Shown piece after piece: positions 45,739-48,838 of a stretch of 64,000 nucleotides of DNA (the first letter of the stretch is position 1; each line of letters opens with the position of its first letter). A program made the position numbers and the translations under genes. The stretch is taken from NCBI GenBank assembly GCA_011390955.1, contig JAABRM010000023.1, positions 1-64,000 on the forward strand, read 5' to 3'. Under the pieces are notes generated by a model that did not search any database, had not been told where the DNA came from, and saw only the letters and a program-made list of their open reading frames with translations. The stretch is from Oscillatoriales cyanobacterium (lineage in GTDB: Bacteria; Cyanobacteriota; Cyanobacteriia; Cyanobacteriales; Laspinemataceae).

Positions 45739-47238
45739 ATGAAAATTGTGGTCATTGGCAGTGGCTTTGGCGGTTTATCGGCAGCAATTAGATTGCAAGC
45801 CCAAGGACATCAGGTGCAGATTTTGGACAAGCGCGATCGCCCAGGAGGTCGGGCTTATGTCTATGAACAAGATGGCTTTATTTTTGATGGCGGGCCGACG
45901 ATTATTACCGCGCCCCAGTTGATTGATGAGTTATTCCAACTACATGGCAAAAAAACCAGTGATTATGTCCAGTTAGTTCCCCTTGACCCTTTTTATACTG
46001 TGAGATTTGCCGATGGTTCCGCTTTTTATTACAACAGCGATCGCCATGCTTTAATTGAGCAAATTCGGCAATTTAATCCCGCAGATGTGGCGGGATACGA
46101 GCGATTTGCTCAAGCTACGGAGCAAATTTATCAAAAAGGGTTTCCCTTGATGACCAAAGCCTTTAGCCGGTTTACGGATATGTTGCCAGTGGCGCCGGAT
46201 ATGTTGCAGTTGCAATCCTATAAATCCGTAACCTCGTTTGTGAATCAATATATTAAGGATGAAAGATTGCGGCAAGTTTTCAGTTTTCATCCTTTATTGA
46301 TTGGGGGAAATCCTTTTACCAGTTCGGCTATTTATGCCATGATTCACCAATTAGAACAACATCAAGGAATTTGGTATGCAATGGGCGGCACTGGGGCGCT
46401 AGTTCAAGCCTTGGTGCGCTTGTTTACAGAAATGGGCGGGGAAATTTTCCTCAATACTGAGGTTGAGCAAATTTCTATTAATGAAAATACCCGCAAAGCC
46501 GATGGGGTGAACCTGAAAAATGGGGAATTTATTGCCGCTGATGTGATTGTGAGTAATGGGGATGTCGCCCATACTTATCTGAATTTGGTGCCGGAAAAGT
46601 TTCGCCGAAAATATCGCGATCGCCGCATCAAAAAGATGAATTATTCTATGTCGTTATTTGTCCTCTACTTCGGCACCAATCGCCGTTATGAGCAAATGGG
46701 ACACCATGAAATTATCATGGCCCCACGGTATCGGGAGTTAATGCAGGATATTTTTGACCGCAAGCAGTTAGCGGCGGATTTTTCCTTATATTTACATCGT
46801 CCCACTGCCACGGATCCGGCGATCGCCCCTGAAGGTTGTGACGCTTGGTATGTTCTGTCTCCCGTACCCAATTTAGCGGGGCCGACGGATTGGCGAACTC
46901 AGGCGAAATCTTACCGAGATCAAATTATCCACTATTTAGAACAGCGTTACTTGCCAAATTTATCTCGACATATTGTTACAGAACGTTACATCGATCCCCT
47001 GCATTTCCGGGATACCCTCAATAGTTACTTGGGCAGTGCGTTTTCCGTGCAACCGACTTTGATGCAATCCGCTTGGTTTCGACCCCACAATCATAGCGAA
47101 GATGTGGCAAATCTTTATCTGGTGGGGGCTGGGACTCATCCAGGGGCAGGAATTCCCGGAACGATCTGTTCTGGCAAAATCGTCGCCGAAGCGATCGCCT
47201 CTCGGTCATCCTCTCCCCCCTCAAACCCCTTTAATTAA
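45739..47238 (+). CDS. CrtI-type phytoene desaturase-like oxidoreductase
   Basis: This 499-residue flavoprotein has the N-terminal dinucleotide motif VVIGSGFGGLSAAIRLQAQG, then RPGGRAYVYEQDGFIFDGGP, typical of bacterial CrtI. The C-terminal FAD-binding signature is NLYLVGAGTHPGAGIPGTIC. Known CrtI members perform carotenoid desaturation at the membrane. Most cyanobacteria use the CrtP/CrtQ/CrtH set instead; CrtI is known from Gloeobacter, so the exact reaction of this copy (phytoene desaturation versus another carotenoid step) is uncertain. An AAGGTG lies eight bases before the ATG. No other carotenoid gene is nearby. Confidence 0.75.
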   Translation: MKIVVIGSGFGGLSAAIRLQAQGHQVQILDKRDRPGGRAYVYEQDGFIFDGGPTIITAPQLIDELFQLHGKKTSDYVQLVPLDPFYTVRFADGSAFYYNSDRHALIEQIRQFNPADVAGYERFAQATEQIYQKGFPLMTKAFSRFTDMLPVAPDMLQLQSYKSVTSFVNQYIKDERLRQVFSFHPLLIGGNPFTSSAIYAMIHQLEQHQGIWYAMGGTGALVQALVRLFTEMGGEIFLNTEVEQISINENTRKADGVNLKNGEFIAADVIVSNGDVAHTYLNLVPEKFRRKYRDRRIKKMNYSMSLFVLYFGTNRRYEQMGHHEIIMAPRYRELMQDIFDRKQLAADFSLYLHRPTATDPAIAPEGCDAWYVLSPVPNLAGPTDWRTQAKSYRDQIIHYLEQRYLPNLSRHIVTERYIDPLHFRDTLNSYLGSAFSVQPTLMQSAWFRPHNHSEDVANLYLVGAGTHPGAGIPGTICSGKIVAEAIASRSSSPPSNPFN

Positions 47239-47386
47239 TCCCTTTCATTAATAATTTTCCCTTCCCCTCCCGGCTTTGACGCCGTTTCCCGTCGGTTTGG
47301 GGCGTGACCCCCGATCCGTAAATCCTCGGAGAATAGCCGATTTTTCGGTCAGCAAATTCGGTCAGCAAAAAGTAGATCGATTATGG

Positions 47387-47416
47387 TTGACAAAAGAGAA
47401 AAACTAGAGTTATAAT
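47387..47416 (+). promoter_or_regulatory. Consensus sigma-70-type promoter
   Basis: TTGACA (47387-47392) and TATAAT (47411-47416) are both perfect consensus hexamers, separated by 18 bases. The expected transcription start is about 47423-47425. This is the best promoter match in the window. Confidence 0.8.
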
Positions 47417-47423
47417 CTATTCA

Positions 47424-47540
47424 TGTAAGAAGTTTGTGGCGGTTTTATAGCATCCACAAATTATCTCCCCCTTATGGGCGATCGCAACTCTCAAATTTCT
47501 TTTCAAGACATAGTTGAGGCGATCGCCTTTTTATTTTTTT
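47424..47540 (+). ncRNA. Candidate small RNA (about 115 nt)
   Basis: Downstream of the perfect promoter the sequence folds into two stems. The first is TTTGTGG/CCACAAA (47433-47439 / 47454-47460). The second is a terminator stem, GGCGATCGC-AACT (47477-47489) with AGTT-GAG-GCGATCGCC (47512-47527), followed by an 18-base T-rich run (47528-47546). Between them lies the unpaired CTCCCCCTTAT. No coding frame is evident. It matches no small RNA I recognise. The alternative is a leader with an attenuator for the gene at 47660. Confidence 0.55.
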
Positions 47541-47659
47541 TATTTTTATCCACAAACAGAATTTCTCCGATAGCGATATCCTCCTGGGTATTCTGGTGAG
47601 GCGATCGCCAGTTATAGTAAAAAGGATTAACTTTGAGATTTGCGAGAAATACTAGGCTT

Positions 47660-48688
47660 ATGACGGTTTTTCAAGGGCGATCGAATTCGGCGCTAAACCA
47701 ATGGATTTTCTATGCTTTTGTGGCACTCATCCTGATGACGATGTGCTTATCCCTGGGGGGATACTTGGGCTTATACCATCAATATTTGGATATCACCAAT
47801 TCTTTTAAAGCCCAATACTTAGCGATCGGAATTTCTGCTTTAGTTTACTTTTTTTTAACGCAGCGGCAACAATGGGTCGTGGTGAGTTTAGTGAGTATTT
47901 TTATCAATGGCATGGAAGTTTTGCCTTGGTATATTCCCCAAGGAATTGCTGCCAGCAATCCCCCGCAAACCCTGCGAGTTTTGGCGTTTAATGTATTAGC
48001 TAGTAACTCTGAATCCGATCGGGTAATTTCTTGGGTAAAAACCGAAAAACCTGATATTGCCATTTTTATGGAAGCGAGTAATCAATGGATTAAACAACTG
48101 AAGAATTTAGATGATACTTTTTCTTATCATGTGAGTGCGGAAAAGATTGATATCCAAATTTATAGCACTCTGCCCCTAGAAAATCCTAAGCTAAACATTC
48201 ATGGTAAAAATCGTGGCTATGTGATTGCGGATATTAATCAAGGGGCTAATTTTTCCCTGATTGCCAGTCATGCTTATCCGCCAGTGGTATTTGGTCAGGA
48301 GGGATTTAACTTGCGGAATGAACAGTTAAAAGAAATGGGTGAAACTGTTACGCAACTAGAAAAACCTGTAGTGGTGGCGGGAGATTTAAACGTGACGATG
48401 TGGTCGCCATATTATCAAAATAACTTTAAAAATGCCCAGTTAAGAAATACTCGTCAAGGTTTCGGCATTTTGCCCACTTATGAAGCGAAAAATTTCTTCA
48501 AAGCTATTCCCGTTGACCATTGCTTAGTCAGTGAGGAAATTCAAGTGGCCGATCTGCGCCTTGGGCCTAGTTTAGGTTCAGATCATGTGCCGATTATTGC
48601 CGATTTAGTGGTGCCTAATTTGGTGAAAAATCAGCAATTCTTTAACCCAGAGGTTCAGCCAGAGTTGAAGCCAGCGATTAAATTGTAA
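47660..48688 (+). CDS. Membrane-anchored endonuclease/exonuclease/phosphatase-family protein
   Basis: The ATG at 47660 gives 342 residues. A TTG at 47633 with AAAGGA upstream would add nine and cannot be excluded. Three hydrophobic helices lie in the first 95 residues (FYAFVALILMTMCLSLGGYL; YLAIGISALVYFFL; VVVSLVSIFINGM). An EEP-fold domain follows: LRVLAFNVLAS, PDIAIFMEAS (metal-binding Glu), LIASHAYPP, VVVAGDLNVT and LGSDHVPIIADL with the terminal catalytic histidine. The domain probably faces the periplasm and hydrolyses a phosphodiester or phosphate ester. The substrate is unknown. The candidate small RNA lies just upstream and might be its leader. Confidence 0.8.
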   Translation: MTVFQGRSNSALNQWIFYAFVALILMTMCLSLGGYLGLYHQYLDITNSFKAQYLAIGISALVYFFLTQRQQWVVVSLVSIFINGMEVLPWYIPQGIAASNPPQTLRVLAFNVLASNSESDRVISWVKTEKPDIAIFMEASNQWIKQLKNLDDTFSYHVSAEKIDIQIYSTLPLENPKLNIHGKNRGYVIADINQGANFSLIASHAYPPVVFGQEGFNLRNEQLKEMGETVTQLEKPVVVAGDLNVTMWSPYYQNNFKNAQLRNTRQGFGILPTYEAKNFFKAIPVDHCLVSEEIQVADLRLGPSLGSDHVPIIADLVVPNLVKNQQFFNPEVQPELKPAIKL

Positions 48689-48691
48689 TTG

Positions 48692-48838
48692 ATACCATTT
48701 ACAAAAAATTATGCAACAATAAGTATTTATATTGTAGGGTGGGCAAAATTCCACCATCATATATGGTAGGGTGGGTAAAATATGCCTGCCCACCCTACGA
48801 ATGTTAGGGGCTGTTGGATGAATTTTTGTAAATGGTAT
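48692..48838. mobile_element. MITE-like element, ATACCATTT family, complete copy
   Basis: This 147-bp element has terminal inverted repeats of about 27 bp (ATACCATTTACAAAAAATT... at the left and ...AATTTTTGTAAATGGTAT at the right). The interior has GTAGGGTGGGCAAAATTCC, ATATATGG and GCCTGCCCACCCTACG hairpins. It lies between two convergent genes. No target-site duplication was clear. Confidence 0.75.

Follow-up and report, generated by a model that had tools for sequence, protein, structure and literature searches.

Cyanobacterial trans-encoded small RNAs (sRNAs) such as Yfr1, IsaR1 and PsrR1 are transcribed from promoters of their own, end at intrinsic terminators and carry an unpaired strand rich in pyrimidines. 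In Firmicutes, Hfq-independent sRNAs with C-rich motifs aim a C-rich single strand at Shine-Dalgarno sequences, and lineage-specific sRNAs are common in bacteria. The lengths given for Yfr1, IsaR1 and PsrR1 are 65 nt, 68 nt and 131 nt, respectively, and PsrR1 is reported to meet the ribosome-binding regions of its targets (PMC6202907). Yfr1 is credited with a fully conserved motif (PMC6974561), and broad conservation is reported for both Yfr1 and PsrR1 (PMC6974561, PMC6202907).

Here we analyzed a locus in a 64,000-nt stretch of DNA (the window) from a 7.1-Mb cyanobacterial genome (G000; assembly 95% complete), together with two genomes of the same genus, Planktothricoides (G001 and the single-contig genome G002). 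We hold with moderate confidence that the locus represents an autonomous, that is free-standing, and genus-restricted sRNA gene, whose constitutive RNA would likely pair with mRNAs through a C-rich linker. Upstream lies a crtI-family carotenoid (phytoene) desaturase gene (45739-47238, + strand; TIGR02734, E 6e-191), and downstream an EEP-family gene on the same strand, with a start at 47633 (TTG) or 47660 (ATG). No open frame of at least 60 aa overlaps the element region on either strand. The crtI-family gene is 98% identical within the genus. Its best match in each of 11 other genomes of the family reached only 25-36% identity and cyanobacteria mostly use CrtP/CrtQ, so that horizontal acquisition of this gene is possible.

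Consensus promoter and predicted RNA fold

The original prediction had named a perfect consensus promoter at this locus, which was confirmed. A sigma-70 type promoter, TTGACA-N18-TATAAT, occupies 47387-47416 of the + strand and matches the consensus at 12 of 12 positions (TTGACA at 47387-47392, an 18-nt spacer and TATAAT at 47411-47416), and its hexamers are the same in G001 and G002. In a simple scan of the surrounding 4 kb this was the only 12/12 promoter. The scan returned 7 promoter-like sites against 8.4 expected from shuffles and 3 terminator-like sites against 4.7, so neither count was raised. Dinucleotide-shuffled windows contained a mean of 0.06 perfect promoters, with at least one in 6 of 100 shuffles. 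Across the 7.1-Mb genome, perfect promoters with a spacer of 16-18 nt occurred 17 times, compared with 2 for the reversed pattern, a control that suggests about two chance occurrences genome-wide. Another of the 17 lies 12 nt ahead of the start of a tmRNA match (L084), which serves as a positive control. No NtcA site (GTA-N8-TAC) was seen by eye ahead of the -10 box; the promoters of IsaR1 and NsiR4 are under Fur or NtcA control.

The 17 perfect sigma-70 promoters constitute loci L078-L094, 15 of which were taken in by the Rfam scan. At three of the 17 (L081, L082 and L094), no open frame of 60 aa begins within 400 nt of the promoter, and these promoters may stand ahead of further RNAs. The scan also found two RNAs that do not adjoin the promoter, a group II intron (L079) and a tRNA (L089).

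From the positions of the promoter and the terminator, the transcript is predicted to span 47423-47546 of the + strand, with its start 6-8 nt past the -10 box (47422-47425), its end in the U tract and a length of about 107-124 nt. The fold of a 123-nt version was predicted at -35.1 kcal/mol (z -4.9), and none of 200 shuffles was as good. The 5' hairpin, hairpin 1 (47431-47462), which had been proposed as an extra hairpin of 7 bp, was recovered with a longer stem: its arms, 47431-47439 and 47454-47462, form 9 outer pairs, with 3 more pairs inside. Folded alone, hairpin 1 reached -11.6 kcal/mol (z -4.4; 1 of 1,000 shuffles equaled it). The terminator stem region alone gave a z of -4.8 (2 of 1,000), and the 5' part with the linker was weaker, at -3.0 (10 of 1,000).

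As had been proposed, two HIP1 octamers (47478-47485 and 47519-47526) make up the stem of the intrinsic terminator (47475-47546, + strand); a T-rich tract comes after the second octamer and extends to about 47549. The AACT/AGTT pairing that was to prolong this stem found no support: the minimum-energy fold pairs CTCAA with TTGAG and lacks AACT/AGTT, and the sister species has ACTT in place of AACT, a change that spoils AACT/AGTT and leaves CTCAA/TTGAG intact. A strict pattern for HIP1-built terminators matched 3 sites in G000 and 4 in G002, too few for a general rule to be claimed; the reversed control matched none, reversed HIP1 being an unfair control.

Between the two stems lies the candidate pairing strand, the linker CUCCCCCUUAU (47465-47475, + strand), which is identical in all three genomes. 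The stretch CTCCCCCTTAT had been predicted to be exposed and able to pair with Shine-Dalgarno sequences. Its exposure is backed by the fold prediction, in which CCCCCUUAU is 85-100% unpaired in both orthologues, and the CU directly before it is 25-31% unpaired in the window version and 57-95% in the sister G001. Pairing of this kind is possible, and our searches found no credible target for it.

An ATG at 47474 opens a frame that codes for 41 aa in the window but 21 aa in G001, and the RNA could also be read as the message for a very short protein. This frame is open in all three genomes, and its first 21 codons are alike save codon 5. The sole differing codon is non-synonymous (N to T), however, and the frame lacks a Shine-Dalgarno sequence, having CTCCCCCTT before the ATG. 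It also crosses the terminator, beyond which it ends in the window, its length is not conserved and it has no Pfam match. We therefore consider a small-protein mRNA unlikely and give it little credence.

Conservation within the genus and relation to neighboring genes

The element is single-copy in its own genome (1 match, with 40 of 154 candidates scored), and G001 and G002 have one match each, at 95% identity. Aligned with G002 over 47424-47530, the window version of the transcript shows 3 differences in 107 positions, and the hairpin arms, the C-rich linker and the terminator stem are unchanged in both sister genomes. The promoter region differs at 2 of 37 positions, both within the spacer. 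In the upstream intergenic region, 8 of 135 aligned positions differ and 13 bases are missing. For comparison, 126 of 984 fourfold sites in seven neighboring genes differ (naive P 3e-4 against the transcript), as do 476 of 5,695 non-coding positions aligned elsewhere in the window (naive P 0.018). Three changes or fewer are found in 14% of the 107-nt windows taken from aligned non-coding sequence. The transcript is thus better conserved than neutral sites, though other stretches match it, and judged from these alignments conservation of the element is good, not exceptional. The transcript does not differ between G001 and G002, which makes this conservation that of one pair of lineages, and the stems are invariant in the relatives found, which leaves no covariation to measure.

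This level of conservation bears on the possibility that there is no functional RNA, and that the crtI-family gene terminator and a spurious or residual promoter have been conserved by short divergence alone. The fairly conserved intergenic region as a whole and the share of equally conserved non-coding windows are both consistent with such an origin, and no terminator-like site was reported from the crtI-family stop to 47386. On the other hand, perfect promoters are found 17 times where the control suggests about two, the promoter hexamers are the same in the sister species, and hairpin 1 is significant without the terminator. We regard a non-functional locus as possible but doubtful. At the sequence level the small RNA reading of the original prediction is upheld by a rare consensus promoter of an enriched type, by two stems that are each significant, by the terminator and by conservation of the element in two other genomes of the genus.

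The original prediction had offered a leader or attenuator of the EEP-family gene as the alternative, in which RNA started at 47423 would be either stopped at the terminator or let through into the gene at 47633 or 47660, as an attenuator or riboswitch. Like attenuator and riboswitch leaders, the element has a terminator upstream of a same-strand gene, about 113 bp ahead of the EEP ATG in the window, and no second 12/12 promoter lies between the two. The gene order in the sister genomes contradicts this arrangement. A conserved tail (47547-47571, + strand) follows the terminator; just past it, at about 47571, the G002 alignment stops, and it picks up again at about window position 47589, more than 1 kb further on in G002. 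The layout of G001 is the same. In both genomes the element is intact and is separated from the EEP gene by about 1.15 kb, and in this gap lies a gene of 147 aa that is read from the opposite strand and converges on the RNA (L006:2993-3436; window point 47571-47589). The 147-aa gene is very probably real, since two further genera of the family have relatives of it at 54-58% identity; it has no match in G000, whose assembly is 95% complete, and a signal peptide is seen in its product by eye.

Unlike attenuator and riboswitch leaders, the element thus has a convergent gene between itself and the downstream gene in G001 and G002. Since the element is kept in three genomes and this gene is interposed in two of them, the leader reading explains the locus poorly. 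Moreover, from about 47589 on the EEP gene retains a conserved upstream region of its own, no antiterminator appeared in the minimum-energy fold extended to 47575, and no riboswitch family was found in Rfam. Linkage on one transcript is not conserved in the sister genomes, and a cis-acting leader or attenuator was set aside as very unlikely.

The sequence ATCCACAAA occurs twice, at 47453-47461 in the 3' arm of hairpin 1 and at 47549-47557 just past the terminator, in all three genomes, and with GTTTGTGG at 47432 it makes an inverted repeat that flanks the element. A mobile palindrome of the MITE type, with GTTTGTGG at 47432 and CCACAAAC at 47551 as its short terminal inverted repeats, would account for the 8-bp inverted repeat at both ends. 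Against it, there is one match in G000 and one in the single-contig G002 (14 of 150 candidates scored) where a MITE should have multiple copies, the position is the same in three genomes, and no common duplicated target site is present. A mobile origin is extremely improbable. Elsewhere in the window, a MITE-like element was noted by eye at 48693-48837, with TACCATTTACAAAAA at 48693, its inverse TTTTTGTAAATGGTA at 48823 and inner copies of a TAGGGTGGG(C/T)A motif between them.

Search beyond the genus and candidate targets

We searched 388 genomes of the order, its own included, by BLAST, and full-length matches were found in three, all of the genus. With two candidates scored per genome, 12 of the 388 gave a match. 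The nine matching genomes outside the genus contributed 10 short matches of 26-56 nt, 8 of which lie inside open frames of at least 100 aa (the exceptions being L045 and L046). In a set of 59 genomes, own included, 4 matched at E ≤ 0.001: the three of the genus and a fourth, from another family, in which a 30-nt match covers the promoter only.

A covariance model was built on three sequences, two of them identical, and applied to the 10 loci and L004. The best E-values were 0.0018 (L047), 0.01 (L045) and 0.015 (L044); these are rough, the loci having been preselected for similarity. None of the three was kept as a homologue: L047 lies within an 895-aa frame and has no GC stem, L045 matched only in the HIP1 stem-loop and has no T tract, and the model match of L044 is about 1.1 kb away from its BLAST match. 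When applied to 14 genomes of the family, the model gave something at E ≤ 10 in 11 (mostly with 150 of several hundred candidates scored), and only the three genus genomes were strong (E 1.2e-26 or better), the next best being 0.14. Where other genera have relatives of the convergent gene (L171-L173), the model scored no better than E 0.21 beside them, with filters off.

No match to the element was found in plasmids and phages at E 1e-5, and no exact match to the hairpin in viral contigs. A collection of genome contigs yielded one matching record, Planktothricoides sp. SR001. Against Rfam 15, Yfr1 included, the window had no covariance match at the gathering score. At E ≤ 10, the region 47340-47660 gave five matches, all far below the gathering score and none named for a cyanobacterial RNA. 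Among the genomes searched, sequence comparison thus points to no convincing homologue outside the genus.

We then looked for targets of the C-rich linker. The extended complement RTRRGGGGGRGRTRRT, with one mismatch allowed and the element itself counted, was counted 8 times in G000 and 15 times in G002, compared with 10 and 16, respectively, for the reversed control, and was therefore not above control in either genome. Three RTRRGGGGGRGRTRRT matches are common to G000 and G002, and in G000 they lie in long open frames, two sense and one antisense. The shorter pattern GGGGGAG-N(2-14)-ATG, where GGGGGAG is the linker complement, occurred 95 times in G000 and 100 times in G002, compared with 33 and 36 for the controls. 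This enrichment before ATG is taken to reflect general Shine-Dalgarno and codon use, as expected of any anti-Shine-Dalgarno sequence. From the 50 listed of the 95 G000 matches, 14 regions were hand-picked, most of which had a similar-sounding match in G002; they hold 15 sites, none of them a convincing ribosome-binding site. L166, where the only site ahead of a long frame (311 aa) stands, was rejected as a target because the site is internal to a 350-aa frame. With the extended complements at control level and no convincing site among those picked, we infer trans-pairing from the architecture of the element.

Proposed mode of action and comparison with known sRNAs

At the sequence level, the features of a trans-encoded sRNA (its own promoter, a short structured non-coding transcript and an intrinsic terminator) are all present, and from them we infer transcription, the RNA ends, constitutive expression and the pairing mechanism. 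In the proposed model, RNA polymerase would initiate at about 47423 from the consensus housekeeping promoter and halt in the U tract past the terminator built from HIP1, so that a constitutive RNA of about 107-124 nt would result. Its parts would be a stable hairpin at the 5' end, the exposed C-rich linker and the hairpin of the terminator. If trans-acting sRNAs are a guide, the linker would most likely pair with G-rich ribosome-binding regions of distantly encoded mRNAs, and their translation would be repressed. A title cited in PMC6202907 attributes altered RNA-binding properties to the cyanobacterial Hfq homologue, so that Hfq-independent action would be expected. The fullest form of the model, a new, strongly and constitutively expressed sRNA born in Planktothricoides, with a two-HIP1 terminator and a broad, Hfq-free anti-Shine-Dalgarno action on many mRNAs, is rather unlikely.

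If transcribed, the element would be a small RNA gene in a genus for which our literature search found no paper linking Planktothricoides with small RNA. It would also be an example of abundant genomic repeats (HIP1) supplying the terminator of a new gene. Rho is generally present in bacteria, but Synechococcus elongatus is named as an exception in which intrinsic termination is reported to be of major importance, and RNA polymerase peaks are reported to be enriched at HIP1 sites, in passages that do not describe HIP1-made terminators (PMC3219970).

Like Yfr1, IsaR1 and PsrR1, the element is a short intergenic RNA, here a predicted one. Unlike the broadly conserved Yfr1 and PsrR1, it was found in one genus only and has no Rfam covariance match. 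It shares with the C-rich-motif sRNAs of Firmicutes a C-rich stretch that is predicted to be single-stranded, but it comes from another phylum, and the likeness is one of architecture.
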